Shown piece after piece: positions 10,370 through 64,000 of a stretch of 64,000 nucleotides of DNA (its first letter is position 1; the number at the start of each line of letters is the position of its first letter). The translations under genes and the position numbers were made by a program. The notes under the pieces were generated by a model. It was not told where the DNA came from and searched no databases. It saw only the letters and a list, made by a program, of their open reading frames with translations. Source of the DNA: Meghimatium bilineatum. Its lineage: Eukaryota > Mollusca > Gastropoda > Stylommatophora > Philomycidae. Where the stretch lies: positions 13,901,400 through 13,965,399 of the forward strand of contig CM067311.1 in the NCBI GenBank assembly GCA_034231615.1, read 5' to 3'.

Positions 10370-11085
10370 GGCGCTCGTTCTCAATTTCTTGAAGATTAGT
10401 AGGATGTAGTCCGAAGAACAGAATGCGCCGTGTCATGGTTTACAACTTGTCTGCGATATCTGCGTCTTTTGGCCTGACGTATCCTACCACCTTTGTAGGT
10501 CACTTTAAATCAATTGTGATGGGTTAGCTAATTTCACCCCACAATCTCCTTTTAATCGTCTCTAACGACGAATGTCAAATGAAAATGCAGACCAACTGGC
10601 TAAGGAAAGTGCTGCCGAAGTCCAACCAGATGTACTAATAACCTACCATCAGAAAAGCAGATGATCAAGTCAATAAGAAAGCCACAAACACCAACACAAG
10701 ATGACTATCACATTATGAACAGATTAGAACAAGTTATAATTCTACGCCTCAGAACGGGACACAACCGACTCAGCAGTCACATGTACACAAAGTTCAAGAT
10801 TGGCAACACGGCCATGTGTACATGCAGCACAGAGTGCCAAACATATACTTCAAGAGTGTTCTGAGCATGAAACGCTGAGGCAGACATATTGGCCAGAGGA
10901 AACAACACTGGAATCAAAGCTCTATGGGCCACTGTATGAACTAAAAAAGACAGCGAGTTTTATTCAGGAGACAGAATTACAGATATAGACATGTTTCAAG
11001 TGAACGAAAGAAGAAGTCTCTAACGACATGCGTGGAAGTTAAACGATGTTGGGATTCTTTGCTCTCATTTCGCGTCCGGCAATAC
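10370..11085 (-). mobile_element. SINE-like repeat, family Y, split by a LINE insertion
   Basis: The 3' part (10376-10569, minus strand) and the 5' part (11028-11085) match the Y copy at 21418-21690. The 446-bp GAA-tailed LINE fragment lies between them, flanked by GTCTCTAACGAC. Confidence 0.82.
10570..11015 (+). mobile_element. 5'-truncated GAA-tailed LINE (3' 446 bp) inserted in SINE Y
   Basis: The fragment begins inside the RNase H domain (NENADQLAKESAAE; compare NEKADQLAKEGAAE in copies A and B). It continues through TPTQDDYH, LRTGHNRL and the Cys/His tail to the GAACGAAAGAAGAAG end. A small indel after THHQK-like codons breaks the frame, and the Cys/His motif is shortened. It is bounded by a perfect 12-bp duplication, GTCTCTAACGAC, at 10558-10569 and 11016-11027. 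It interrupts a minus-strand SINE Y copy, whose halves match other Y copies on both sides. Confidence 0.92.
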
Positions 11086-15607: not shown

Positions 15608-16085
15608 AAGACAGTTTTGTCTCATCATCTTCTTCTTTCCTTCCTCTTTTACCCTTTGCGGGTGTCGAGGGAGATACAATGTTCTTGTTCTTGTTTTCTG
15701 GCAGCTTCAGATAATGTTATTTGGTGTTCGTGTAATGTCTCTTTGATGTTGTCGATCCAGCGTACTCTAGGTCTACCCTTGGCTCTTCTTTCTGCTTCTC
15801 CTCTCTTCATATATGCTTTATAAACTAATGAATCACACGGCATTCTTTCCAGATGACCAAACCATTGTATCTGTTGGTTTTGTATGTATTGTAGAATTGA
15901 TATGACACCCACTCTTTCTCTTATGAAATCATTTCTAATTCTGTGTCTTCTGGTCACTCCTGTGGCTTTTCTCAGACATCTCATCTCTGTTGTAACCAGT
16001 TGTCTCTTATGTTTTGTTGTTAAGGACCATGTTTGACATTGGTAGCACAGGGCTCGAATGAAGATACTTTGGATAAGATGTTTTT
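15608..16085 (-). mobile_element. LINE 3' end, GVTRRHRIRN family
   Basis: The minus-strand frame 15984-15649 encodes MRCLRKATGVTRRHRIRN, WFGHLERMP, then KGRPRVRWIDNIKETLHEH. These are the terminal blocks of a non-LTR retrotransposon protein. The same sequence recurs with high similarity at 57968-58420. The protein ends at DTRKG with a short 3' UTR. It is 5'-truncated. Confidence 0.82.
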
Positions 16086-16318
16086 TTCTGTCTCATATTT
16101 TATCAATCATAACATAGTTGCAACTGGGGTTATTTCTCTATTGTTTGATAATTATATCAACGAGCCAAGCATGGTCACAGTCTGTTCTAGAAAGTAAATG
16201 TGCTGAAGACGGGGGCACCTAGGCAAAAGGCACAACACAGCAATAACCATTTCAAATATACAAGCAATAAAGATCTAGCGAAGGAAGAAGAATATTGACA
16301 TGCTTGAGAAGATCTAAA

Positions 16319-16784: not shown

Positions 16785-17170
16785 AATCGTCTTCAATAAA
16801 GACATTCCAACTGAATTAATTAAGACTCCATTCGCTACGTTTTTGATTAATGTTGGGATTTTGTTTGGTCATTATTTATATACTTGGAATCGCATGCTAA
16901 AAATAGCCAAGGCGTCTCCAACTACTATCTTCTTCTTCTTCAGCGTTCATTCTCAAACTCTCGCTGGATCTCTCTTGCAACAGGACAATGTTCTACTAGA
17001 TCAAGGGTGTAGTCCAGAGAATACACCGTTGTGTCGCCGTTTTATTTGTGCCAATGACCCGACACATTCGTATTCGGCGGAGACTCCAAGTATATAAATA
17101 TTGATCAATCGAAATCCCAACAAGCACTCCTGTCCGGTAAAGGACAACTCTAGATAGCTCTTATTGGAGA
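16785..17170. mobile_element. Fold-back MITE, copy split by a SINE X insertion
   Basis: The left arm (16795-16925: GACATTCCAACTGAATTAAT, then ATTTATATACTTGGA) and right arm (17081-17150: CCAAGTATATAAATATTGA) belong to the hairpin MITE of 11530-11770. A SINE X copy at 16928-17080 occupies the loop, so X landed in an older MITE. Confidence 0.8.
16928..17080 (-). mobile_element. SINE-like repeat, family X, nested in a MITE
   Basis: TTCTTCTTCTTCAGCGTTCA at the left and CACATTCGTATTCGGCGG at the right are the two family ends, in reverse orientation. It lies within the loop of the hairpin MITE 16785-17170. Confidence 0.82.
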
Positions 17171-22371: not shown

Positions 22372-23735
22372 ACCCGAGGACTTAATGAGGTCCATATTTA
22401 TAACCTGACTTAAGAAACCAGGGACCCCCGAATGTGAAGAACACCGTACAATCAGCCTCATGAGCCTAATAACCAAAATACTTCTCAGAATCATCATGAA
22501 GAGAGTGAGAAACAAAATTAAATCAGAAATAAATCCAGAACAATGTGGCTTTGTAGAAGGCAAAGGTACCTACAATGCTATTTATATATTGAGAACACTA
22601 ATAGAGAGGTCTATTGAGGTAAAAACAGATTTGTTCCTCTGTTGCATAGACTACACTAGAGCATTTGACAAAGTTAAACATAGCGAAATTATACACATGC
22701 TAGAGAATTGTAACACTGACAGCAAGGATTTAAGAATAATCAAGAACATGTACTGGCAACAAACAGCAGCAATAAGAGTAGGAAATCAATTTGGCATTTT
22801 TCAACAAAAAAAACAAGGAGTCAGACAGGGATGCGTGCTTTCACCAGACCTGTTCTCTTTATACAGTGAAAACATATTGCGTGCAATAGTAGATATCCCA
22901 GGAATATCAGTGGGAGGACATAACATAAATAATTTGAGATATGCGGATGACACTGTTCTGATTGAAAAAAGTCAGGAAGACCTTCAAAATTCAATTAAAG
23001 TAGAAGTCGCACAAAGTAAAGAGAAAGGTCTCTTCCTAAATATTAAGAAAACAGAAGTAATGGTTATTTCAAAGAAACAAAATAACACACGTTGCAAGAT
23101 CATAGTGAATGATATAGTATTAACACAGGTCCACCAATTAACATATCTAGGTACAATGATTACAGCAGATGGAAGACGTTCAACAGAAATAAGATGAAGA
23201 ATAAGACAGGCAAAAACAACATTCAGAAAAATGAAAAATATACTGTGTAATATGACCTTGTCATTAGAGGTGAGAAAGAGAGTTCTGCAGTGCTATATAA
23301 CCCTTATACTAACATATGGGTACGAGTCTTGGACAATAAACAAACTGGAAAGTGGGAGATTGGAGGCAACAGAGATGTGGTTCTACAGAAGAATGGTGAC
23401 AATACCATGGACTGCCAGAAAAACTAATGTAGAGGTGTTGAAAGAGTTAAATGCGAAACGGACCTTAATCAACAATATAAGAATAAGGCAATCTTCTTTT
23501 TTTGGCCACTTCATGAGACAGGCAGGTTTGGAGAACATAATCACAACAGGCAAGATTGAAGACACCAGAGATAGAGGGCGACAACGTGAGAAAATATTAG
23601 ACAGTTTGACAACCTGGCACGGCAAGGAAACAACAACGACTTTGATACATAATACTGTGGACAGAGAGCTGTGGAGTGTCATGACCGCCTACGCCAGCCG
23701 GCATGGCACCTGATGATGATGAGTGTTTAAAGTGC
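22372..23735 (+). mobile_element. RTE-like LINE, 5'-truncated, reverse transcriptase and C-terminal region
   Basis: The frame starts at KKPGTPECEEHRTISLMS, in line with the second frame position of 22460. It carries RT motifs A (CIDYTRAFDKV), B (GVRQGCVLSPDLF) and C (RYADDTVLI), then TYLGTMITADGR. A TGA at 23195-23197 stands where relatives have Arg in EIRRRI. Translation then resumes in the same frame with the C-terminal block (YGYESWT, EMWFYRRM, RGRQREK) and ends at RHGT before TGATGATGATGA. The upstream endonuclease is missing, so this is a 5'-truncated insertion. The motif set fits the RTE group, and the clade name is tentative. The single in-frame stop, a probable CGA to TGA change, suggests moderate age. 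Confidence 0.88.
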
Positions 23736-30439: not shown

Positions 30440-30840
30440 CAAAGGTGTAAAGTACACTTCAACAAGGTGTAAAGTACACTTCAACAAGGTGTAAAGTACA
30501 CTTCAACAAGGTGTAAAGTACACTTCAACAAGGTGTAAAGTACACTTCAACAAGGTGTAAAGTACACTTCAACAAGGTGTAAAGTACACTTCAACAAGGT
30601 GTAAAGTACACTTCAACAAGGTGTAAAGTACACTTCAACAAGGTGTAAAGTACACTTCAACAAGGTGTAAAGTACACTTCAACAAGGTGTAAATAACACT
30701 TCAACAAGGTGTAAAGTACACTTCAACAAGGTGTAAAGTACACTTCAACAAGGTGTAAAGTACATTTCAACAAGGTGTAAAGTACACTTCAACAATGTGT
30801 AAAGTACACTTCAACACGGTGTAAAGGATACTTCAACAAA
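30440..30840. repeat. 22-bp tandem repeat, about 18 copies
   Basis: The unit AAGGTGTAAAGTACACTTCA plus AC is almost invariant until the last three copies, which carry single changes. Confidence 0.95.
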
Positions 30841-34999: not shown

Positions 35000-35260
35000 T
35001 ATCTGTTCTTGATTATTCTTGATTAGAAACTGACCTCACAGCACGTGGGGCATTCCCATAAGTGCTCCACCCTCTGTTCCAGCAGCCGTCCGACTCGATG
35101 GTGTTTCGAGTCTAATGCAGTCGAAATCAGGGCACAACTCTGGCCCTTGCGACAGGTTTCTTTGTTGTTCTGCCCACCAACACCGTGCCCGCAACTAGTT
35201 CAAGCACAACGTCGGCCTGTCGGAACAACATGGTAACTGTTATCGAAGGTTATGACTACG
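35000..35260 (+). repeat. Dispersed repeat R, copy 1
   Basis: CTTGATTAGAAACTGACCTC, CATTCCCATAAGTGCTCC, GTTCCAGCAGCCGTCCGACT and AACATGGTAACTGTTATCG recur in the same order at 37770-38035. A weaker relative of its left end lies at 57608-57690. Its nature (SINE or LINE 3' end) is not clear. Confidence 0.7.
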
Positions 35261-35261
35261 G

Positions 35262-35392
35262 GATTGTATAGATGACGTGCCATGAAGCTTCTATAAGAAG
35301 ATAACCTCAATATAAAGGCATGTCATCTACTAAGGTTTTTCTGTTGCATGGTTGGTTTGTCTAGTGAGCCATTGGTGAAACCCACAGACCAA
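35262..35392 (+). repeat. Inverted dispersed repeat, arm 1
   Basis: ATAGATGACGTGCCATGAAG, CATCTACTAAGGTTTTTCTG and TTGTCTAGTGAGCCATTGGT recur as the reverse complement at 40095-40224. In arm 1 it is continuous with repeat R. Confidence 0.68.
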
Positions 35393-37769: not shown

Positions 37770-38035
37770 ATCACCTTGATTCTTGATTAGAAACTGGCCT
37801 CACAGCACATGGGGCATTCCCATAAGTGCTCCGCCCTCTGTTCCAGCAGCCATCCGACTCGATGATGTTTCAAGTCTAATGCCACCAAAATAGATGTCAA
37901 CATCAGGGCACAACTCTGACCCTTGCGAAAGGTTTCTTTGTTGTTCCGCCTACCCACGCCGTGCCGTAACTAGTTCAATCACAACGTCGGCTTGTCGGAA
38001 CAACATGGTAACTGTTATCGAAGGTAACGACTACG
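37770..38035 (+). repeat. Dispersed repeat R, copy 2
   Basis: This is the second copy of the repeat at 35000-35260, in the same orientation, with a 20-bp extra stretch near 37885. It lies just upstream of an RNase H LINE fragment. Confidence 0.7.
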
Positions 38036-38094
38036 GGCACCAACATCCCCACCAAATACATAAATAAAGCAACACATTAAAAAAACTTAGTAAT

Positions 38095-41870: not shown

Positions 41871-42174
41871 CTAAGGATGGTCAGCAGCAAGCCAGCCACC
41901 ATTACTTTCCCAGGAGGTATAGTACCAATTTCCTTCGATTGGGTTGACTTTAATGTCATTGGTGCTTTAAAATATTTAGGGTTGAATTGGAAATTGATCA
42001 CTTGATCACCTGGCTAAGAAACCAATTCACTAACATCTGAGCTACTAGGATATTGGTCAGATGTTAGAGAGAAAACATATTGATCAGATAATAAAGAACA
42101 AAAAGGAAGGATGGTAGTCCTAACATTTAAATTTTAAATGTAACACCAGGTGTATAATCAAAACAAAAGGATAC

Positions 42175-42272
42175 ATCCGCAAGCAGCCTGTCCTATTACC
42201 AATAGCCAACAAGTGTTGAACTGGATCAAATGCCAATGCCGTAGGCTGGAATGGGAATCCATGACGGACAGT
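42175..42272 (-). CDS. STXBP5: Tomosyn (syntaxin-binding protein 5) coding exon 2
   Basis: This 98-nt exon continues exon 1 in phase 0 and encodes TVRHGFPFQPTALAFDPVQ, then HLLAIGNRTGCLR. Vertebrate and fly tomosyns read TVRHGFPYQPTALAFDPVQ followed by LAIGTQTGALRL at the same place. It is the opening strand region of the first WD40 beta-propeller. The acceptor is strong: a T-rich stretch, then TATTCTGCAG directly before ACT. The exon closes with two bases (AT) and GTATCC. An AT+N codon would give Ile, which fits the expected LR[I/L]FGRPG continuation. The donor is weaker than consensus. I found no exon for the following FGRPGV...LHLWN segment in the remaining 42 kb to the left. A by-eye check for HLWN codons on the minus strand was negative. 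Confidence 0.93.
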
Positions 42273-42479
42273 CTGCAGAATATAAAAAAGTTGCATTTAT
42301 TGATCTTTAATGTTACAGCTACAAGCTACTGTCACAACATAATAACTATACGTGTGCTAATACACACATGCAAACTGTTTTACATGTACGAAAAGTCCCT
42401 AGATAAAGGATAGTACCTACATAGAAAAGAGGTTTTGTTGTAGTTTTATGAAGACCATCAGACATATTAGTGTCTAGAT

Positions 42480-42735
42480 TAAGGAGAGAAAATAGAGATG
42501 GATTGAGCACAAGCTCAGAAAACCAGTAAATATTACAGCTAATAGATCAATGACATGGATCCTAGAGGGAAAGGAAACAGATCCTAGGAAAGACCTAGGA
42601 GCACATGGAGAAAAGAGACCATGAGGGATTTCTGAGCAGAAATGAGAATTACATGGAATGAGACTGAGAACATATATTCAAGTATAGAGACAATAGGAAA
42701 ATCTTTGTCTGTGGCTTATGTACATGAGGATGTGT
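42480..42735 (+). mobile_element. LINE C-terminal fragment in tomosyn intron 1
   Basis: One plus-strand frame reads GKGNRS, ERPRSTWRKETMRDF, then RITWNETE. This matches the GKRKRGRPR.TWRR and TW.E.E..A blocks found at the 3' end of many LINE ORFs. It is heavily decayed and lies antisense to tomosyn. Confidence 0.55.
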
Positions 42736-44719
42736 AAACACCATAGGGGTTACTTGATACCCAGTTGTTGTAATTTCTCTGTTAAACATAACTAGGTCTT
42801 TGTGAGGTACCTTTTCTTCAGCTGTGGACCAACTGGATTTTTATTATATTATTCTCAGACCTTATACAAATTAGAGGTTTCATTTCACTTAATCCTATCT
42901 TTACAATGTTAGAAATGTTCCTTTTTTAACGCCACAGCCCATAATCAAAATAACCTAGTCCCCATTGAGAAGTGTCACTGCACACCACTGATACTAATGG
43001 TTCTCGTGGCTCTCTATCTAAACACATTCCCCATTCTGCCCTTCAGATACCCAGCCCTACTCGTGCTACACTTAATAACAAATTCTCTCAATCACACCCA
43101 AGATACTTCATCTAATAAAGTCAATAATGAATTTACTTCCTGAGAAGATGGAAAAGTGACAGTTCCACAGTTGATCATTGAAACAAGGACGCATCAGCTA
43201 AAATACATTACTTGAACAAGGAATTTAATTATCTATATAGGCCTATTACACACAAAATGAAATCAAGATAAAACAAATGTGGGAGGAATCTATTGTTTCT
43301 AGACACTAAATTAACATCTCTTATAAATTGTTACTTTAGCATATTTTCCCTCCATTCTCTAATGTACACCATGAATAATCTCACCACATTCTATTTCAAG
43401 CTCTCACAATCTCTTCATTGCAGACTGTGTTTTCTGGTTAATCAATGAATGCTGTCCAGTTACCAATCAATGTAAAGTCATGGCAATGTAAATTATAATG
43501 CACCAGAAACAGCATAGCAAATAATTGAGAAAGCTAACGTATTACAGATCCGTGAAAAATGCTGTCCTGTGCAAGTTTAAAATATTATCCTGCTAAATCA
43601 GGCATGGGAAAAATATTGTCAGCCACAGCACTTTTATTGGCCCTCAGATTTTAAAATATTATATGTGCAGGGCCCTGAGCAAAGTAAATATAAAATCCCA
43701 AGCTATCTAGGCCACACTGAGAAATGTTATGAGGAGGTCTACAGCAAATCTTTAATGTTCGAGCTGACAGTTGTTTCACCCACTGCTAATATTTGATGTT
43801 TGACATTGGATACTTAAACATGCAGCAAGTCTTATACAGATTTTAATGTTCTCAGCACTTAGTAACAACTACTTCCAGATACTTTTGTTGAACTTTCCAG
43901 GAAAAATGAGAGCTTGAGTGACATCATACCACGTTTCAAGTGCTCAATCTGGTCCTCCGACCCAAAATGTTGCCATCTCTGTTCTAAAACAATTACCATT
44001 TTGGCCACATGTTCAATTATGTCCTTGTTGATGTGGCATCTACTTGTACTGTACCAAAACATTTTTATTGAATGTCATGAAAAAAAGGTTACATAAAATA
44101 TGTAAGGGTTACATGTGGCTGAAAAGGTTACGTGGTAACCGAAAACCTTACAGGGTGACAGATAGGCCCTATGCAACAACACTATGAGTCAGACGTTGAA
44201 GATTACAAAAGTAGAAAACCAAAGATATTAAATTATTATTAATGAGCATAACATCAAATGTTGGCCTATTTACTGCATACAGGAACAGCAGTAGTGTAAT
44301 GTTAAGTAATTCACTAGCTGACCAGCAAACCTAGGTTCTGAGTCCACTCCTTATTTGTGGATTAAATAGAAACTACTACAGTGGTTCACCCAGCCACTTG
44401 AAAGAAGAGTACCAGGGTTCATGCTCTGTGAAGGTTTAAGAATTGCAATATGGCTACTGAGAAAGTGTGGTAAGTGATGCTAGTCAGGAGATTTCTGGCC
44501 AATCACTGACTAGGCAGCTGAGCACTTATAGGAAACCTTGTGTTATGATTCTAGTACATAACTGATATTACCTTTAACTGTACTGTGTAATATGAAAACT
44601 CTTAACTCTGAAGCTTTACAAGTAAGGCAAGCTGTTGTGAGAACTGGCTAAATATTACAACACTAGATCTAATTCATATAACATGTGATGTATTCTTTCC
44701 AGAAAGGTGTCTTCAGCGT

Positions 44720-45405
44720 GGACACTCTAAATGTTTCTGTCTTGGATGAGCACTGTAGATTTCTCCTTATGAATTGTTTATAAGCCACCTTTCATCTACT
44801 TTCAGTATTTTCAAAACTTCTGTGTTCTTTTTTTCTCTGTCCATGATATTTGTAGAATCTTACTATAGCACTTTATTTCAAATGAGTTTATTTCTTGTGA
44901 AGTTGTTTAAAGTCCAGGTCTCGCAGCCATGTGTTACAAATGAGAAAACACTTGATCTTAAAAGGATTATTTTAGTGTCATTAATACTTTGTCACAGCTT
45001 TCTAATTTGTGTTAGTTTGAGAGCTGCAATTGTGAGTCCTCTCTTAATCTCGACTGAACAATCTCCGGAACTGTTTATATTTTCACCCAGATGTTCAAAT
45101 TTGTTTACACATTCTAGTTCTATATTTATATTGATTATCAATTTGATCTTCGTTTTGTCTGTTGTCATAATTTTTGTTTTCTGTGCATTTATATATATAT
45201 TTTGAATCTCACTGTATTTCTTTATTGCTGTGATTAACTGTTTCAGTCCCTCAGGATGTGTAGTAAAGAAGACTGTGTCATCTGCATATCTTATTTCTGG
45301 AATCTTGTACCCACCGATATTTAATGGATGAAATTCAATTTTCTCTAGTTCTTTTCTTACATTTCTCATTATATTCTCTGCATAGATGTTAAAGGCGAGA
45401 GAGAA
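44720..45405 (-). mobile_element. LINE reverse transcriptase fragment (RTE-like, second subfamily)
   Basis: On the minus strand, 45414-44992 encodes a relic of motif B, then PEIRYADDTVFF (motif C), NAQKTKIM and EHLGENINSSGD. Beyond it, shifted codons still spell a HGCETWT-like block and a SWTEKK-like block near 44900-44750. This is the RT palm-to-thumb part of an RTE-like LINE, distinct in sequence from the one at 22372. It is broken by frame changes. Confidence 0.8.
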
Positions 45406-45555
45406 AGAGGGCAATAATGAGAGAAAATATCAGAAATGTTAACAACCTGGCATATCAGGGAAACAATGATCCTGATACAAAATACTAGAGATAGAGAGGT
45501 GTGGAGATACATGATCACTTACGTCATCTAGCATGGCACCCGATGATGATGATTA
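45406..45555 (+). mobile_element. RTE-like LINE 3' terminus fragment
   Basis: The sequence GAGAGAAAATATCAG, then AACCTGGCAT, then CATGGCACCCGATGATGATGAT matches the final 150 bp of the LINE at 22372-23735, including the (ATG)n tail. It is joined head-on to a minus-strand LINE fragment at about 45405, so at least one rearrangement or a nested insertion lies at that point. Confidence 0.75.
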
Positions 45556-45699
45556 GTAGTAGTAAGCATTTGTAATACAAATATTTATTTATTCACTATC
45601 AGAACAATGACCAATGTCTATGTTATATTGTTCGCCCATCACAAGTGATGCTGCTAATTTGTTAAATTCACTTTTAAAATTCAGTTAGCTAGCTACTTG

Positions 45700-46075
45700 A
45701 CTACAAACTCATGGATGACTAATAAGCCCTATTCTGGTCGCAAATGTACTTGGGCACTTCGAGCGTGGAATGATCTCTTTTGATGGATTTTCATCTACCC
45801 ATGACTTAATAGCTACTATCTGCTGTTGAGCTGCTGCATTTCTTGTCTTTTCACAGGATGTGGTGCTCATTTTTTTTGCCTGCAGAGTGCAAAGTAGCGC
45901 TATTTCGTGCAGTGTCTTCCCATATATCTTGGGGTTTATTTCAAAGGCTTTCAATGAGATCTTTAACAAGTCATTGTAGAGTTTCTTTTGGCCACCTTGA
46001 GAATGCATGTCCTTCTCCAACTCACCATTGTATCTTTCATAGGTGAAAATCTGCCATATGTACCACATGACCTGC
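45700..46075 (-). mobile_element. LINE 3' end with a terminal zinc-finger-like motif
   Basis: The minus-strand frame 46068-45709 reads YNGELEKDMHSQGGQKK, LYNDLLKISLK, then CPSTFATRIGLISHP. LINE ORFs in many invertebrates end with a GQKKR..D.LK block and a C..C...F..RIGL.SH finger. The second Cys of the finger is not preserved. Only the 3' end is present, so it is a 5'-truncated copy. Confidence 0.8.
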
Positions 46076-46245
46076 CCAACAAATCTGTGTCTGCATTAGA
46101 ATAGTGTCAATGCTAGGTCAAGGACAGTGACATCTGGAATCTCCAATGTCTATACAAAGCCATTAACAACCATGATATCAGATGCAGTAAACATATAAGG
46201 TAATTAACAGTACTGTAATAACAAAACACATCCAGGAATAATGAA

Positions 46246-46256
46246 ACTTAGGGAAC
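46246..46256. repeat. Target-site duplication, 3' side of LINE copy A
   Basis: ACTTAGGGAAC occurs here and again at 50280-50290, directly bracketing LINE copy A. This marks the insertion as target-primed reverse transcription and fixes both ends of the element. Confidence 0.85.
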
Positions 46257-49200
46257 TTCTTCTTCTTCTTCTTTCGTTCACTTGAAACGTCTATATCTGT
46301 AATTCTGTCTCCTTATTAAAACTCACTGTCTTTTGTAGTTCATACAGTGTTCCATAGAGCTTTGATTCTAGTGTTGTTTCCTCTGACCATTATGTCTGCC
46401 TCAGCGTTTCATGCTCAGAACACTCTTGAAGTATATGTTTGGCACTCTGTGCTGCCTGTCCACATGTACACATGGCCGTGTTGCCAATCTTGAACTTTGT
46501 ATACATGTGACTGCGGAGTCGGTTGTGTCCTGTTCTGAGACGTAGAATTATAACTTGTTCTGGTCTGTTCATAATATGATAGTCATCTTGTGTTGGTGTT
46601 TGTGACTTTCTTATTGACTTGATCATCTGTTTTTTCTGATGGTAGGTGATTGGTATATCTGGTTGGTCTTCGGCAGCACCTTCCTTAGCCAGTTGGTCTG
46701 CTTTTTCATTTCCTGGTATTCCACAGTGAGAGGGTATCCACTGCATGGTTACCCTATACTGGTAAGACAATTCGCTAAGTAGTTTTTTCAAGTCTGTTAG
46801 TTTTCCAGACTGGAGAGCTTGAAGCACTGACCTTGCATCTGTCAACAATACCACAGGCTGTAGGTCAGAGTTGGAGTTCAGCAGTTTTTTAGCTGTCACA
46901 CTAATTGCCTGGATTTCTGCATCATAATTATTGCAGTATTTTCCTGTTGGTGTTCTGATGGTATCTCTAGGCTTGTGTGGATATTCTATATATACACCTG
47001 CACCTCCATTCCTCACAGCATTCTGTGCTGACCCATCTGTGTATACTTTGACCCATATATCTTGTGGATATTCCTCATCCAGGAAACTGAGGGTGACTGT
47101 CCTTCGCTGCACACTGTTCTGTTCGTCCTCGCTTAGTATTCCTTTCACATGGGTCTGAATGTATATTGGCATTCCATGCCTTTCACTCCACGGGGTTTGT
47201 TCTGGTACAGGCCTTAAGGGGCTGTCAACTTCAGGTAGGTCTGTAAGTTGTCTGCGGAGTCCTTTAGCTTGATCGATAAAGCTGCTTCTTTTCAGTCACC
47301 CCATTGCTAGATTTTGGAATCTTTCCTTCATTGGATGACTTGGCATACACTGAAACTTTTCTGCCTGAATTAGTACTTTTGTGTCTCTGCGTTCGCCAAG
47401 TGTTTGCATTCTTCCCATTTTCTGCATCTCTGCTATGGGTGTTGATTTCATTGCTCCCAACATTATTCTAAGTGCCTGGTTTTGCACTTTATCTAGATCT
47501 TGTAATGTGGTGTTTGATGCAGGACACCATGCAGCTGAACCATATTCCAGGTGTGGTCTTATGCCTTGCTGGTAAACTTTACTGAGTATATTCCCACCGG
47601 CTCCCCATGTGGTTCCACTTAGTTTTCTCAGGATAGCTAACTTCCTCCTGGCTTTTGTTGTTGCTTTGTTTATGTGTTGCTTCCATGTCAGTTTATCATC
47701 AAAAGTAACTCTGAGGTATGTGGGTTGTTTGTCTTCTTTCAAGAGCTCTCCATCTATTTTGATATGACTGGCTTTTTGTTTTGGTGAGAGGGTAAAGAGT
47801 GTAGTGCTGCACTTATCTGTGTTAATGCTGATGCACCATCTATTAGCCCATAAGGTTAGGGCATCGATAGCTCTTTGTATTTGTTTAGTGGCCACTGTCG
47901 CATGTTCTTCCGTGCACCAGATCACCAGCATACATTGCCACTTTGATCCCATGTGGTAGTTCAGCAACTAGGTCATTGATGTAAACCAAGAAAAGTGTGG
48001 GTGACAGGACTCCTCCCTGGGGGACTCCATGACGCAGTAGAACTTTCTTGCTCTTGCGACCATCTAATTGTACCCTTGCTCTTCTATTATGCAGGTATGC
48101 TTTTACCCATTTGTACATTCTTGAGCTAACCCTGCAATTTCGCAATTTCTTTAGGAGCCCTTCTTTCCAGACCTTATCAAATGCTTTTCTGAGGTCTATC
48201 CATGCTGCTAGTACCAGTTTCTTATCTCGGAAGGCATCCTCAATCTCTTGGGAGAGGTAGGTTGCCTGATCTTCAGTAGAGTAGCACTGTCTGAAACCTG
48301 CTTGCTGTGATACCAGAAGGTTTTCACTTTCAAGGTACCACTGCATCCTAAGATTGATAATGCGTTCCATTGTTTTGCATAGACAGCTTGTGAGGCTGAT
48401 GGGCCTGTAGTTGGAGACTGTGTTGCCATCTTTTCCTGATTTGAGGAGTGGTATCATTATTGCTTCTCTCCATGCCTGTGGTACATTACCTGTGAACCAG
48501 CTTGTGTTAAAGATCTGCAGTAGCTTTGCTCTTGCTGCAATTCCCAGGTTTCTAATCATTTCATTGGACACTCCACCAGCTCCAGGGGACTTTTTCATTT
48601 TCAATTTGGATATTGCATGCTCCAGTTCTCTCATTGTGATTGGTGCCTCCATGACTTCAGGTATAGGTTCGCCTTGTCCAATGTTTTGCTGGTTCTCTCG
48701 AACCTCCTGTTGTTTGTCTGGGCTGACTTTGATGTTATTGTCTTCTGCAAAGGAATCTGCAAAGTAATCAGCTGCATGTTTATCTGTTAAAATGTTTCTA
48801 TAAAGTGTGATCCTGGTATTTCTCCCTGTACCTTCATCATTTAGTTGTTTTACAAGTTTCCATAATTTCCTAGTATCCCTTTCTAGGTTCAGCGACTCTG
48901 TTTTTTTCTTTCCAGCTGCTCCGTCTGGCTTGTAACTTGGCTCTTTGAAATTTAGCCTTTGTTTGCTGATATTTGTTGTGATGTTCTTGGCTAGGTCTGT
49001 TCTCAGCCTGCTGTCTAGATGTTTCCATCTCATTTTGCAGCTTTTCCAGTTCATCATTCCAGTAGGGTTTGTAGTTTTTGCGTGCCCCCCTGGGTATGGT
49101 TTTACTAGCAGCATGTAGTATACATCTATTAAATTCACTCACTGCTCTATTGATGTCTTTGTCCAAGTTCATGTCCTTAGCTAGAACACTGGTTAAATGC

Positions 49201-50279
49201 TGGTACATTTTCCAGTCTGCCCTTTTATAGTTCCACCTAATGAGCGTACTGCTGTCCTTGGTAAATTCATTGTGGATTTCCAGAAATACTGGTCTGTGGT
49301 CACTACACCCAAGCTGCTTTCCAATGACACGTGTGATGTTTCATTCCAGGCCTGGTGAGTGGAATGCCAGATCTGGTGTAGATGTGGTGTGCCATGCTCT
49401 CGAGTAGAAGGTTGGTGAGTCTGCTGGCTGGTTAATAAGGATGAGATTATTTTCATCCTGCCAGCTCTCAAGTTCCTCACCTCTCTTGTCGATATGATCA
49501 TAGCCCCAGCTCTGAGAGTGGCTGTTGAAGTCACCACACACCATAAGTCTCTCTTTATCTGGAATTGTGTCTAGTGCCAATGGTTTATCATTTGGGCAGT
49601 AGTAGTTCAGGAGATGGAATTCTGCACTGTCTGTTTTTAGGTGGAGCATCTGGTATTCTGCCCCTTCCATATATACTTCCAGCTGACATGCGCTGATATT
49701 GTTTTTAACAAGTGTCAGAATTCCACCCTTTCGCCTGTCCTTTCGGTCAGATCGGTAGCACTGGTAGCCTCTGATTTTGAAGGTTATGTCGCTGCTGAGG
49801 TGTGTTTCTTGGATACAGCATATATTGTTCTTCACTGAGGACATTTTCAAGTTCCAATTTTTTGCTGTATCCATCTCTTTTACTGTTGACACCCTCAGCA
49901 TTCCAGTGCATTATTTTTATTGGTGGTTTGTTTGTTTGGCCAGTAACTCTATTCCCTTGCCTCCTGGCTCCTCGAGGCAATTGAGAAGGACTTTCAGTAA
50001 CTGAGGTTGGGCCCTTTCGAGGTATAGGGCCCGGCACCGTCCCTGCCTGAACGTCCGCCACAGGGCAGGCACCATAACTTTTTATAGATACAGACATGTT
50101 TCCATTGTGTTTTGTGCGTGGCATCCTGATTATCTGTGCACCTTTTGGCTGGATGCCTCCGTCTTCAGCACTCTGCTTACTTGGGCAGGACTATGGTCCT
50201 GCCCGACCAGTCTTAGTTTCCAGCCCCTGATGGCTGAACTAAGCCCCATCACCACTGCACGGTGCTGGCCTTGATGGGG
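46257..50279 (-). mobile_element. LINE copy A: near full-length EN-RT-RNase H retrotransposon with a (GAA)n tail
   Basis: Read on the minus strand, the element has a short 5' leader (50279-50125) and an ATG at 50124. An endonuclease domain follows (HWNAEGV; QETHLSS; CGDFNSH near 49540). Next come reverse transcriptase (AGFRQCYSTEDQ, DLRKAFDKV, GVPQGGVLSP), RNase H (VYTDGSAQN; GNEKADQLAKEG) and a Cys/His motif (CTCGQ, then HILQEC). It ends in GAAGAAGAAGAAGAA. No separate ORF1 is seen, so it looks like a single-ORF, about 4-kb I-group LINE (Ingi/Nimb-type is possible). An 11-bp duplication, ACTTAGGGAAC, flanks it at 46246-46256 and 50280-50290. The copy is dead. Compared with copy B, an 8-bp deletion near 47925 destroys the YADD catalytic motif, a T-tract near 48900 is longer by one, and other frame changes split the ORF. 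It sits sense-oriented in tomosyn intron 1. Confidence 0.93.
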
Positions 50280-50290
50280 ACTTAGGGAAC
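50280..50290. repeat. Target-site duplication, 5' side of LINE copy A
   Basis: This is the second copy of ACTTAGGGAAC. The element's first bases (CCCCATCAAGG on the minus strand) start immediately inside it. Confidence 0.85.
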
Positions 50291-50354
50291 AAAATTGGAA
50301 AAAAAAAAATGATGACCAAAGACAGTCTGTGAACTGTTGAAAAAATAGGCTTAT

Positions 50355-50760
50355 AATATGTCATGTGACGTTTTCCTTCCAGAACGTTGTCTTCCCAATG
50401 AACTCTCTGTCTTGGGCGATGTGGCTTGCATTTTCTAGCGATGTATTCATGTTATCTTTGATGTTGTCTGTCCATCGTCTTCTTGGATTGCCCTTTCTCC
50501 TCTTCCCAGGTACTCTTCCCTCCATTATTTGTCTTTCTAAATATTTGTGTCTCTTTATATGATCAAACAGGCTTAGTTTTCTTTTTGTTATTGTGTTTAG
50601 TAACCAACACTCTGGAATCTTCAATGTGTTTATAATATCCGAGTTTCTGGTTTTTTCCTTCCATGATATTCTAAGTATCTTTCTGTAGCATTTCAGCTCA
50701 TAGGCGTTGATCTTCTTTGTCACTGTTTTACTTAGGGTCTATGTTTCACAGCCATATCTT
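50355..50760 (-). mobile_element. LINE C-terminal fragment
   Basis: The minus-strand frame 50723-50361 carries ELKCYRKILRISWKEK, KRKLSLFDHIKRHKYLE, GKRRKGNPRRRWTDNIKD and AQDREF. These are the conserved C-terminal blocks of RTE/CR1-type LINE proteins. Remnants of a preceding ETWT-like region lie just above 50723. It lies next to the 5' end of LINE copy A but belongs to another family. Confidence 0.8.
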
Positions 50761-51578
50761 GCAACCGGAAAAATAAAATGTAACATTCTTATAATATAGG
50801 CCAATGCATTTCAAATTTTATTAAAAAATTGAACAGGATATGAGCTCCAGGACAAATTGTCAAAAAATGAAAGATCAGAAACAGTGCAGAAAAATGCACT
50901 TTATAGGCCTATATTAGGCTATTTGGTACATAATAAAAAGACTTAATATCCTTCATGTATTGTACTGGCTTGTAGCCTCCTATAGCCGCGATCAAACACA
51001 GTGGCCAACTTAACTGGGTCTAGGAAAATATTGATTGCAATGAGATTAAACTATAATAAATGAATGAGTATTACATTTTTTAAACATAGGCCTAATTTCT
51101 AATTAGTAAAAAAAAAACGAATTCTAAAACTAAACTATGTCTAACTTACTATAGGGCTTATCTAAAACATAAGCCTATTATCTAATGATTATCAGGAAAC
51201 CACAATCATGGTCCAGTTGTCATTGGGATAAGCAGACATTCTGGCCCTGTCCGAAAACAAAATATTTATAGGCTTCTACTACTAGACACACCAGTTATAG
51301 TTATAGTAGTATAGTACTGACTTTACTTACTATAATCAGAAATTAATAACGTTACTTTATTAAGGCTTAGCACACGCGGCTTGGTAGACTTGCAGTTGAG
51401 TGGAGCTGGTCTAGAAAAGCACAACAAATAAAATTAGAAAATGCACTCTAAAGACAGCGATACAATATATATAGGCCTATATTGCGTTACCCGTTACAGT
51501 TATAAAAAGCAACATTGTAATCTAAGTCTAAATGTGACAAGACAATGTTTACGGAAGTGCTCTCACTGTGTTAATTAC

Positions 51579-51722
51579 CTTCGAAACATAATAATGCTCA
51601 CTACGCAACGTTTCTTCTATTTCGGTATCCTGTCGATTTTGAGAACTGCCAGTTCCACGAAATCCATCAAGAACATTCTTCAATGTGAATTTTTTTGCCT
51701 TCGAACCAGATGAAGATGACAT
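51579..51722 (-). CDS. STXBP5: Tomosyn (syntaxin-binding protein 5) coding exon 1, with start codon
   Basis: This exon encodes the first 48 residues of tomosyn, a large WD40/R-SNARE protein that binds syntaxin and SNAP-25 and restrains synaptic vesicle priming. The residues KFTLKNVLDGF, then DTEIEETLRSEH, align with the vertebrate N-terminus (KFNIRKVLDGL, then EPEIQETLQSEH). The variable Ser/Gln/Asn-rich spacer between the two blocks is also typical of the family. The ATG at 51722 is chosen because an in-frame TAA lies six codons upstream and the base at -3 is A. The exon ends in AAG followed by GTAATT, a usable donor, in phase 0. The next exon found is 9.3 kb away. A 20-codon upstream ORF overlaps the start. 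The identification is by remembered family sequence, not by a search. STXBP5 and STXBP5L cannot be separated here, and invertebrates usually have one tomosyn. Confidence 0.93.
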
Positions 51723-51729
51723 GATGCAT
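51667..51729 (-). promoter_or_regulatory. Upstream ORF overlapping the tomosyn start codon
   Basis: An ATG seven bases upstream of the tomosyn ATG opens a different frame. It runs 20 codons and stops at TGA inside exon 1. Its context has T at -3 (weak), while the tomosyn ATG has A at -3. If the transcript starts upstream of 51729, this would require leaky scanning. The transcription start is not visible, so the uORF may not be in the mRNA. Confidence 0.5.
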
Positions 51730-52323
51730 AAATATTGTTAGCCGTCTACAAGACATGTCAACGATAAGTTGCTGTCGGCTGCTAACATTTTGCTCGTGAG
51801 CAATAAATTTACTTTGCCCAGATTTCTAAAATGGGTCAAAATGGTGAAGTAGGAAAACCTTGGCTGAACAATTAAATAATTATTCTAGCTTCCTTGCCTA
51901 ACATTTTCCTATTATTATCGTTGTTGCTATAGTAACATTAAAAACGAATAATTATTCCACAAAATCTATAAAATAAGTCAGGTATCTCTTGAAAATAGTG
52001 TGTATATGTGAATTTTAATAACACAGGTTCGCAACACTAAATGTATGTACAAGTCTAACAGGGTTAGGGGCGGCAGACACACGATGATAGACAAAATTCT
52101 GGATAGTCTAACTTTCATAGGCAAAGTTGGTATAGCACATTAGATAATGTTTTAAGTAAGGAGACATTTTACAGGAAAACAAATTCTTAATAAAAAGTTC
52201 ATTCGCCTCTTTTCGTGAATAGTTCCCTCCTTTTATTGATGTTTGAAATTACCTTTTTGTGAAAAATCGTCAAGGGAGCGGTTTTTACACACACACACCC
52301 ACCCCCACCCCCAATTATCATAG
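51723..52323 (-). promoter_or_regulatory. Region upstream of tomosyn exon 1 (5' UTR or promoter expected)
   Basis: This interval lies directly 5' of the tomosyn start on the minus strand and must hold 5' UTR sequence, and perhaps the promoter if there is no non-coding first exon. I see no convincing TATA box at a fixed distance, no CpG-rich block and no ORF. A SINE begins at 52324. Confidence 0.35.
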
Positions 52324-57967: not shown

Positions 57968-58850
57968 GACATTCTTCTTCTTTCCTTTTTCTTTACGGGT
58001 GTCGAGGAAGATATAATGTTGTTGTTCTCGCTTTTCTGGCAGCTTCAGATAATGTTATTTGGTGTTCGTGTAATGTCTCTTTGATGTTGTCGATCCACCG
58101 TACTCTAGGTCTACCCTTGGCTCTTCCATCTGCTTCTCCTCTCTTCATATATGCTTTATAAACTAATTAATCACACGGCATTCTTTCCAGACCACCGAAC
58201 CATTGTATCTGTTGGTTTTGTATGTATTGTAGAATCGATATGACACACACTCTTTCTCTTATGACATCGTTTCTAATTCTGTGTCTTCTGGTCACTCCTG
58301 TAGCTTTTCTCAGACATATCATCTCTGTTGTAACCAGTTGTCTCTTATGTTTTGTTGTTAAGGACCATGTTTGACATTGGTAGCACAGGGTTGGAATGAA
58401 GATACTTTGGATAAGATGTTTTTTGTGTTCACATTGGTAGCATTTTGTGTTGCAATAAAGGGGATAATTGACCCAGTATTTGATTCGCTTTGCTACAACG
58501 AATGTCTATTTCGGTGTCCATCTTTCCATCTGAAGAGAATGTTACGCCTAAGTATTTGAAGGTGTTGGTTTGTTTATTGATTTGATTTTCCACTGATATA
58601 TTTAGATTGTGTGTATCCCTTCCTATTGCCAGGGTTTCTGTTTTATCAATTCTTATCTTCATGTTGTTGTTCTTGCACTCGATGTCCATGGATGTTAGAT
58701 GATGTTGTAGTTCCGTATCTTTAAATGCTATTATTGCCTGATCGTCGGCAAAGAGTAGCTCTTTAGTATTTTCATTTTGCATCTTGGCTTTTTTTCGTAA
58801 TGCTATCGATATATGTGATGAACAGGATTGGTGATAAAACCTGGACATTA
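57968..58850 (-). mobile_element. LINE 3' half, GVTRRHRIRN family, with RT motif
   Basis: This is a longer copy of the element at 15608-16085. The minus-strand frame 58857-58429 carries ELLFADDQAII (RT motif C), IDKTETLAIGRD, then TFKYLGVTFSSDGKMDTEID. The C-terminal blocks follow in other frames at 58410-57985. It is 5'-truncated and carries several frame changes. A second LINE family (RNase H type) abuts it at about 58855. Confidence 0.82.
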
Positions 58851-60246: not shown

Positions 60247-61130
60247 GTTCAATAACTTTCGTTATGCCCCCATGCATGGACGTTATACATGGGAGAGAAA
60301 TTGAGTGCGTCAATAACTTTCGTTATGCCCCCATGCATGAATATTACACAAGGGAGATTGAGTGGGTCAATAACTTTCGTTATGCTCCCATGCATGGATG
60401 TTATACAAGGAAGGGATATTGAGTGATTCAATAACTTTCGTTATGCCCCCATGCATGGATGTTATACAAGGAAGGGAGATTGAGTGGGTCAATAACTTTC
60501 GTTATGCCCCCATGCATGGATGTTATACAAGGAAAAGAGATTGAGTGATTAAATAACTTTCGTTATGACCCCATGCATGAATATTACACAAGGGAGATTG
60601 AGTGGGTCAATAACTTTCGTTATGCTCCCATGCATGGATGTTATACAAGGAAGGGAGATTGAGTGGGTCAATAACTTTCGTTATGCCCCCATGCATGGAT
60701 GTTATACAAGGAAAAGAGATTGAGTGATTCAATAACTTTCGTTATGACCCCATGCATGAATATTACACAAGGGAGATTGAGTGGGTCAATAACTTTCGTT
60801 ATGCTCCCATGCATGGATGTTATACAAGGAAGAGAGATTGAGTGATTCAATAACTTTCGTTATGCCCCCATGCATGGATGTTATACAAGGAAGGGAGATT
60901 GAGTGATTCAATAACTTTCGTTATGCCCCCATGCATGGATGTTATACAAGGAAGGGAGATTGAGTGGGTCAATAACTTTCGTTATGCCCCCATGCATGGA
61001 TGTTATACAAGGAAAAGAGATTGAGTGATTCAATAACTTTCGTTATGCCCCCATGCATGGATGTTATACAAGGGAGAGAGATTGAGTGATTCAATAACTT
61101 TCGTTATGCCCCCATGCATGGATGTTATAC
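60247..61130. repeat. 61-bp satellite, about 15 units with higher-order order
   Basis: The unit contains CAATAACTTTCGTTATGCCC, CCATGCATGGATGTTATAC and AAGGAAGGGAGATTGAGTG. A 55-bp variant (ATGAATATTACACAAGGGAG) recurs at fixed places, giving a three-unit block of about 177 bp that occurs twice in a row. The array is cut by the 3' end of LINE copy B. Minus-strand open frames here are artefacts. Confidence 0.94.
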
Positions 61131-64000
61131 TTCTTCTTCTTCTTTCGTTCACTTGAAACATGTCTATATCTGTAATTCTGTTTCCTTAATAAAACGTCAT
61201 TGTCTTTTGTAGTTCATACAGTGTCCCATAGAGCTTTGATTCCAGTGTTGTTTCCTCTGGCCAATATGTTTGCCTCAGCGTTTCATGCTCAGAACACTCT
61301 TGAAGTATATGTTTGGCACTCTGTGCTGCCTGTCCACATGTACACATGGCCGTGTTGCCAATCTTGAACTTTGTATACATGTGACTGCGGAGTCGGTTGT
61401 GTCCTGTTCTGAGACGTAGAATTATAACTTGTTCTGATCTGTTCATATTGTGATAGTCATCTTGTGTTGGTGTTTGTGGCTTTCTTATTGACTTGATCAT
61501 CTGTTTTTTCTGATGGTAGGTGATTGGTATATCTGGTTGGTCTTCGGCAGCACCTTCCTTAGCCAGTTGGTCTGCTTTTTCATTTCCTGGTATTCTACAG
61601 TGAGAGGGTATCCACTGCATGGTTACCCTATACTGGTAAGACAATTCGCTAAGTAGTTTTTTTTAAGTCTGTTAGTTTTCAAGACTGGAGAGCTTGAAGC
61701 ACTGACCTTGCATCTGTCAGGAATACCACAGGCTGTAGGTCAGAGTTGGAGTTCAGCAGTTTTTTAGCTGCCACACTAATTGCCTGGATTTCTGCATCAT
61801 AATTATTGCAGAATTTTCCTGTCGGTGTTCTGATTGTATCTCTAGGCTTGTGTGGATATTCTATATATACACCTGCACCTCCATTCCTCACAGCATTCTG
61901 TGCTGACCCATCTGTGTACACTCTGACCCATATATCTTGTGGATATTTCTCATCCAGGAAACTGAGGGTGAGTGTCCTTCGCTGCACACTGTTCTGTTCA
62001 TCCTCGCTTAGTATTCCTTTCACATTGGTCTGAATGTATATTGGCATTCCATGGCTTTCACTCCACGGGGTTTGTTCTGGTACAGACCTTAAGGGGCTGT
62101 CAACTTCAGGTAGGTCTGTAAGTTGTCTACGGAGTCGTTTAGCTTGATGGATAAAGCTGCTCCTTTTCAGTCGTCCCATTGCTAGATTTTGGAATCTTTC
62201 CTTCATTGGATGACTTGGCATACACTGAAACTTTTCTGCTTGAATTAGTACTTTTGAGTCTCTGCGTTCGCCAAGTGTTTGCATTCTTCCCATTTTCTGC
62301 ATCTCTGCTATGGGTGTTGATTTCATTGCTCCCAACATTATTCTAAGTGCCTGGTTTTGCACTTTATCTAGATCTTGTAATGTGGTGTTTGATGCAGGAC
62401 ACCACGCAACTGAACCGTATTCCAGGTGTGGTCTTATGCCTTGCTGGTAAACTTTACTGAGTATATTTCCACTGGCTCCCCATGTGGTTCCACTTAGTTT
62501 TCTCAGGATAGCTAGCTTCCTCCTGGCTTTTGTTGTTGCTTTGTTTATGTGCTGCTTCCATGTCAGCTTATCATCAAAAGTAACTCCGAGGTATGTGGGT
62601 TGTTTGTCTTCTTTCAAGAGCTCTCCATCTATCTTGATATGACCAGCTTTTTGTTGTGGTGAGAGGGTAAAGAGTGTAGTGCTGCACTTATCTGTGTTAA
62701 TGCTGACGCACCATCTATTAGCCCATAAGGTTAGGGCATCGATAGCTCTTTGTATTTGTTTAGTGGCCACTGTCGCATGTTCTTCCGTGTACCAGATTAC
62801 CAGGTCGTCAGCATACATTGCCACTTTGATCCCGTGTGGTAGTTCAGCAACTAGGTCATTGATGTAAACCAAGAAAAGTGTGGGTGACAGGACTCCTCCC
62901 TGGGGGACTCCATGACGCAGTAGAATTTTCTTGCTCTTGCGACCATCTAATTGTACCCTGGCTCTTCTATTATGCAGGTATGCTTTTACCCATTTGTACA
63001 TTCTTGAGCTAACCCTGCAATTTCGCAATTTCTTTAGGAGCCCTTCTTTCCAGACCTTATCAAATGCTTTCCTGAGGTCTATCCATGCTGCTAGTACCAG
63101 TTTCTTTTCTTGGAAGGCATCCTCAATCTCTTGGGAGAGGTAGGTTGCCTGATCTTCAGTAGAGTAGCACTGTCTGAAACCTGCTTGCTGTGATACCAGA
63201 AGGTTTTCACTTTCAAGGTACCACTGCATCCTAAGATTGATAATGCGTTCCATTGTTTTACATAGACAGCTTGTGAGGCTGATGGGCCTGTAGTTGGAGA
63301 CTGTGTTGCCATCTTTTCCTGATTTCAGGAGTGGTATCATTATTGCTTCTCTCCACGCCTGTGGTACATTACCTGTGGACCAGCTTGTGTTAAAGATCTG
63401 CAGTAGCTTTGCTCTTGCTGCACTTCCCAGGTTTCTAATCATTTCATTGGACACTCCGTCAGCTCCAGGGGACTTTTTCATTTTCAATTTGGATATTGCA
63501 TGCTCCAGTTCTCTCATTGTGATTGGTGCCTCCATGACTTCAGGTATAGGTTCACCTTGTCCAATGTTTTGCTGGTTCTCTCGAACCTCCTGTTGTTTGT
63601 CTGGGCTGACTTTGACGTTATTGTCTTCTGCAAAGGAATCTGCAAAGTAATCAGCTGCATGTTTACCTGTTAAAATGTTTCTATCTTTATAAAGTGTGAT
63701 CCTGGTATTTCTCCCTGTACCTTCATCATTTAGTTGTTTTACAAGTTTCCATAATTTCCTAGTATCTCTTTCTAGGTTCAGCGACTCTGTTTTTTCTTTC
63801 CAGCTGCTCCGTCTGGCTTGTAACTTGGCTCTTTGAAATTTAGCCTTTGTTTGCTGATATTTGTTGTGATGTTCTTGGCTAGGTCTGTTCTCAGCCTGCT
63901 GTCTAGATGTTTCCATCTCATTTTGCAGATTTTCCAGTTCATCATTCCAGTAGGGTTTGTAGCTTTTGCGTGCCCCCCTGGGTATGGTTTTACTAGCAGC
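61131..64000 (-). mobile_element. LINE copy B: EN-RT-RNase H retrotransposon, 5' part beyond the window
   Basis: This is the same family as copy A and is nearly identical to it by eye. A long open frame (63916-61679, 745 codons) covers the end of the EN-RT linker and the whole RT domain. The RT motifs are AGFRQCYSTEDQ, DLRKAFDKV, GVPQGGVLSP and an intact YADD (62815-62804), followed by RNase H up to LTDARSVLQALQS. The rest of RNase H and the Cys/His tail (61644-61186) are in another frame, because a T-tract near 61660 is one base longer than in copy A. The 3' end, with its (GAA)n tail, abuts the 61-bp satellite at 61130, so it was probably inserted into that array. The window edge hides the 5' end and any target duplication. 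Only one clear lesion is visible, so it looks young. Confidence 0.93.

Follow-up and report, generated by a model that had tools for sequence, protein, structure and literature searches.

Two exons of a putative tomosyn gene, the second ending in a candidate minor-class splice donor, in repeat-rich DNA of the gastropod Meghimatium bilineatum

Two coding exons on the minus strand

The stretch of DNA analyzed here (64,000 nt of contig CM067311.1 of Meghimatium bilineatum, positions 13,901,400 to 13,965,399; hereafter the window) contains, on its minus strand, two coding exons that are very probably the first of a tomosyn (STXBP5-type) gene, a conserved and ordinary gene of the host. A preliminary description of the window had proposed two minus-strand exons of 144 and 98 nt that join in phase, and this gene model is borne out by an in-frame stop upstream of the first exon, a good splice donor and a pyrimidine-rich acceptor. 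Exon 1 (51722–51579), which we assign to tomosyn from its sequence, its match to a provisional tomosyn reference and its donor score, is 144 nt (48 codons) in length, starts with an ATG, and translates as MSSSSGSKAKKFTLKNVLDGFRGTGSSQNRQDTEIEETLRSEHYYVSK. A TAA stop lies in frame just 5′ of it, and the ATG may therefore well be the genuine start codon. With a rough weight table the exon 1 donor (AAG/GTAATT) scores 4.15, a score reached by only 0.74% of the 7,681 GT sites in the window. Exon 2 (42272–42175), assigned from its sequence, its tblastn match to the same provisional reference and the matches to solved structures described below, is 98 nt long, reads TVRHGFPFQPTALAFDPVQHLLAIGNRTGCLR plus two bases, and ends in phase 2; it is preceded by an acceptor (...TTTTTTATATTCTGCAG/ACT) that ends in CTGCAG and has pyrimidines at 14 of the 20 positions before the CAG. 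The two exons join in phase 0 to give an 80-residue N-terminus. Between them lies intron 1 (42273–51578, minus strand; 9,306 nt, phase 0), which by its ends appears to be of the major class (U2-type), and which holds a copy of a long interspersed nuclear element (LINE) on the strand of the gene.

To assess these matches against chance, we compared the window by tblastn with a provisional human tomosyn-1 sequence, and did the same with 100 versions of the window shuffled under a first-order Markov model, keeping the best score per shuffle. Exon 2 scored 62.4 bits and exon 1 33.5 bits, alike with word sizes 2 and 3; no other place in the window scored above 28.5 bits, and the two exons share a strand and follow each other in the expected order. 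The best scores of the shuffles reached at most 30.4 bits (median 23.1) with word size 3 and at most 31.2 bits (median 24.6) with word size 2. The match of exon 2 is thus beyond chance beyond doubt, and that of exon 1 is by itself only a little above chance. We accept exon 1 because its order, strand, frame, and splice sites add to its weak score. When the joined exons are aligned with the provisional human tomosyn-1, 42 of 82 columns (51%) are identical.

A phmmer search of the 80 residues against the PDB, which is independent of the provisional reference, reported four sequences in all at E values up to 1. LLGL1 was matched at 3.2e-8 and two LLGL2 sequences at 9.1e-7 and 9.2e-7; the fourth, SRO7, was not significant (E 0.55). 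Judged by these matches the 80-residue N-terminus is a member of the Lgl/tomosyn superfamily, and exon 2, by homology, opens the first WD40 β-propeller.

The splice donor at the end of exon 2

Exon 2 ends in ...TTGCGGAT/GTATCCTTTTG, such that GAT is followed by GTATCCTTTT (42174–42165, minus strand), a candidate minor-class (U12-type) 5′ splice site for intron 2 and a full match to the U12-type donor RTATCCTTT. This is a point absent from the preliminary description. A passage of PMC2831892 gives the U12-type donor consensus as ATATCCTT, and GT forms of this donor are among the examples printed in PMC7367187, in one of which, RNF121 of Monodelphis domestica, GTATCCTTTT itself is a phase-2 donor. 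U12-type introns are also reported (PMC7367187) to be biased away from phase 0, with which the phase of intron 2 agrees. A first-order model leads us to expect RTATCCTTT about 1.7 times per window, and therefore it is the position that counts. It occurs twice (as GTATCCTTT), the other copy, at 30831, lying inside a tandem repeat, and under the same model the chance of finding it within 21 sites is approximately 0.0003. The longer RTATCCTTTT has a single occurrence on both strands of the window, namely the intron 2 donor. As a major-class donor the same site scores -3.72 with the rough weights, a value that 35% of GT sites match or exceed. Because the donor matches the U12-type fully and the major class poorly, we think it likely, judging from the donor, that intron 2 is excised by the minor spliceosome.

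Under the alternative, which we regard as unlikely, intron 2 would be of the ordinary, major class, and either GTATCCTTTT would be a coincidence or exon 2 would end elsewhere. GT-AG minor introns share their termini with major ones, and, as noted, GTATCCTTT is found once more in the window. The 170 bases examined contain eight further GT sites, of which three outscore the intron 2 donor as major-class donors (-0.97 at 42199, -1.02 at 42124, and -1.34 at 42146). None of these is good, however, when set against the +4.15 of the exon 1 donor; use of the GT at 42199 would cut conserved sequence, and use of those at 42146 and 42124 would add residues unlike tomosyn. Such coincidence would also have to contend with the low probability of a minor-class donor arising within 21 sites. 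Reading through the donor leads to a stop 50 codons from the start of exon 2.

Besides the three higher-scoring GT sites, several observations count against assigning this donor to the minor class. The tblastn match runs two residues beyond the end of exon 2 (MY versus LF), an overrun that we take to be chance, and the exact end of the exon rests on the donor together with the alignment to the provisional tomosyn. A U12-type intron is expected to have a TCCTTAAC-like branch site 10–20 nt upstream of its acceptor. No exact copy of the branch site TTCCTTAAC is present on either strand of the window, and neither an acceptor for intron 2 nor a U12 branch point was found within it, which also speaks for the major-class alternative. 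A scan with a rough weight table listed 31 branch-like sites over the two strands. Of these, 12 sites weaker than the exact motif fall below 42175 on the minus strand, and none is near a weak exon-3-like open reading frame (ORF) at 17160. Intron 2, seen here from its donor, would at more than 42 kb be long for a GT-AG U12-type intron.

Extent and family of the gene

Intron 2, to which positions 1–42174 (minus strand) would belong, would measure at least 42,174 nt, extending up to the edge of the window, because no credible further tomosyn exon was found there. Neither tblastn with the provisional tomosyn nor phmmer with its residues 81–160 against stop-to-stop ORFs of at least 12 amino acids yielded a credible exon 3 within the window. 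The best phmmer candidate, the minus-strand ORF at 17160, has an E value of only 0.21 and was rejected, as was a match of 37949–37695 to tomosyn residues 753–836 (E 0.073), which is interrupted by two stops and lies partly in a repeat (37779–38037) that is shared with 35015–35262. The C-terminal part of tomosyn (with the R-SNARE motif) had no match in the window by tblastn, and for the predicted gene the R-SNARE must be encoded beyond it.

The presence of only two exons in 64 kb of repeat-rich DNA, with no credible exon over the 42 kb downstream, would fit a relic, namely the start of a tomosyn gene that was duplicated or truncated, that repeats have severed from the remainder, and that is no longer expressed. 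We consider this improbable. Both exons are open, join in phase, have plausible splice sites, and encode conserved residues; moreover, a processed pseudogene is excluded because an intron is present. Long introns are, in addition, usual in repeat-rich genomes.

With respect to the family, the preliminary description had named tomosyn, and a better match to another WD40 family would have spoken otherwise. Our comparison covers 43 residues that align without gaps to LLGL1 and LLGL2. Over these columns the protein encoded in the window is identical to the provisional tomosyn-1 at 30 positions versus 23 for LLGL1 and 20 for LLGL2; it agrees with the provisional tomosyn alone at 8 of the 43 and with LLGL1 or LLGL2 alone at 2. 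In common with tomosyns (STXBP5, STXBP5L, and invertebrate tomosyn) it has the VLDG segment, EI(E/Q)ETL(R/Q)SEH, and TVRHGFP(F/Y)QP(T/S)ALAFDPVQ, the tomosyn-type residues of exon 1 being those of the VLDG...EIEETLRSEH segment. Over the first 80 residues it differs from the provisional human tomosyn-1 in that the serine-rich leader preceding KFTLKN is longer and the linker is shorter. With the Lethal giant larvae proteins (LLGL1 and LLGL2; chains 8r3y, 6n8p, and 9ejk) it has in common the first propeller region, including TV.HGFP.QP.AL, whereas those proteins differ from it at the 8 tomosyn-only columns. These comparisons favor a protein closer to tomosyn, as represented by the provisional reference, than to Lgl and, together with the matches to LLGL1 and LLGL2 in the PDB, they support the family first proposed. 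That the exons instead belong to a cell-polarity gene of the Lgl (LLGL1/2-type) sister family is most improbable, for although the LLGL1 and LLGL2 structures are matched significantly, exon 2 is conserved in both families, and two columns are shared with LLGL1 or LLGL2 only, both the count of identities and the tomosyn-only columns point the other way and exon 1 carries the VLDG segment of tomosyn.

Weighing against the assignment to a tomosyn gene are the weakness of exon 1 by itself (tblastn E 0.002; phmmer E 0.016), the provisional nature of the tomosyn reference, the lack of any match between the 80 residues and models of Pfam, NCBIfam, or PHROGs, and the failure to find a credible exon 3 in the window. 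The exons themselves, the fact that they join in phase, and the superfamily to which they belong are seen directly, and the predicted exons show no departure from the established architecture of tomosyn.

Surroundings and significance of the gene

The preliminary description spoke of a repeat desert. The region is indeed rich in repeats, with tandem arrays occupying 6,235 of the 64,000 bases in 23 places and with several reverse-transcriptase ORFs; "desert", however, is loose wording. The LINE segment in intron 1 (46259–49112, minus strand) contains reverse-transcriptase and RNase H ORFs and is 96.8% identical to 61130–64000 over 2,872 aligned columns; on its 5′ side it is preceded by an endonuclease ORF (49344–49910), likewise on the minus strand. 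The second copy is in the same orientation, lies upstream of exon 1, and reaches the edge of the window. Exon 1 is therefore flanked by two LINE segments of approximately 97% identity in the same orientation, about 14.9 kb apart, and recombination between them would delete it. A third fragment, at 10577–11016, is inverted and 92–93% identical to the 3′ end of that LINE. An array of about 15 copies of a 61-nt tandem repeat (60249–61130) ends where the upstream LINE alignment begins. Within intron 2, and antisense to the gene, are two adjoining ORFs of another retroelement (22409–23713, plus strand), one of which (22409–23194, plus strand) matches RVT_1 with an E value of 1.8e-33. Segments 15628–16086 and 57973–58424 form a direct repeat (94% identical over 460 aligned columns) whose ORFs look retroelement-like by eye.

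Other scans added little. Among public contigs, viral_contigs gave 25 pattern matches to the 80 residues and genome_contigs gave 122, none of which was confirmed, and the LINE ORF had no pattern match in viral_contigs. Searches of the window for tRNAs, and for Rfam families at gathering thresholds, found none. The CpG observed/expected ratio of 51601–52000 is 1.0 as compared to a window median of 0.62, and we claim no CpG island there because this value is inside the 5–95% range. The 5′ flank was also scanned for bacterial promoters, which is not informative for an animal.

Tomosyn has two N-terminal WD40 propellers and carries at its C-terminus an R-SNARE, by which it pairs with syntaxin and SNAP-25; it limits vesicle priming and so acts as a brake on vesicle release. 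In the gene that we propose, exon 1 would encode the leader together with the conserved segment VLDG...EIEETLRSEH, exon 2 would start the first WD40 β-propeller, and exons beyond the window would complete the protein, whose C-terminal R-SNARE helix would bind syntaxin and SNAP-25 and restrain vesicle priming. Consistent with this domain order, WD40-1, WD40-2, and SNARE domains are described in a passage of PMC5529015, in which both ends of the protein contribute to vesicle binding, and STXBP5/tomosyn appears in a catalogue of presynaptic genes of human and insects (PMC2374702). Intron 1, with its 9.3 kb and major-class ends, and intron 2, with its more than 42 kb, would then be removed by different machineries, the latter by the minor spliceosome, whose scarcity could limit the output of the gene.

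Our literature searches found no paper pairing tomosyn, STXBP5, or STXBP5L with U12 or U12-type introns, none pairing STXBP5 with the minor spliceosome, and none pairing LLGL2 with a U12-type intron; none of the minor-intron papers among the matches listed involved STXBP5 or tomosyn. The match for STXBP5 together with minor introns was a formin review (PMC8533766). STXBP and LLGL are absent from the main texts of PMC6865273, PMC6717393, PMC10639083, PMC2831892, and PMC7367187, the gene tables of which may still list them. A dependence on minor splicing has already been raised in general terms for vesicle fusion in a passage of PMC6865273.

What we describe is a known gene in a new sighting, with the minor-class donor as one added point of interest. 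The repeat-packed window is now anchored to a conserved gene, and its exons are shown to lie far apart. We suggest tentatively, as something less than an even prospect, that the second coding junction of animal tomosyn holds a minor-class intron of ancient origin, retained even where repeats have enlarged it past 42 kb, and that the output of this presynaptic brake depends on the minor spliceosome. If intron 2 is truly of the minor class, tomosyn would join the voltage-gated channels as a gene of excitability or secretion that is dependent on minor splicing.

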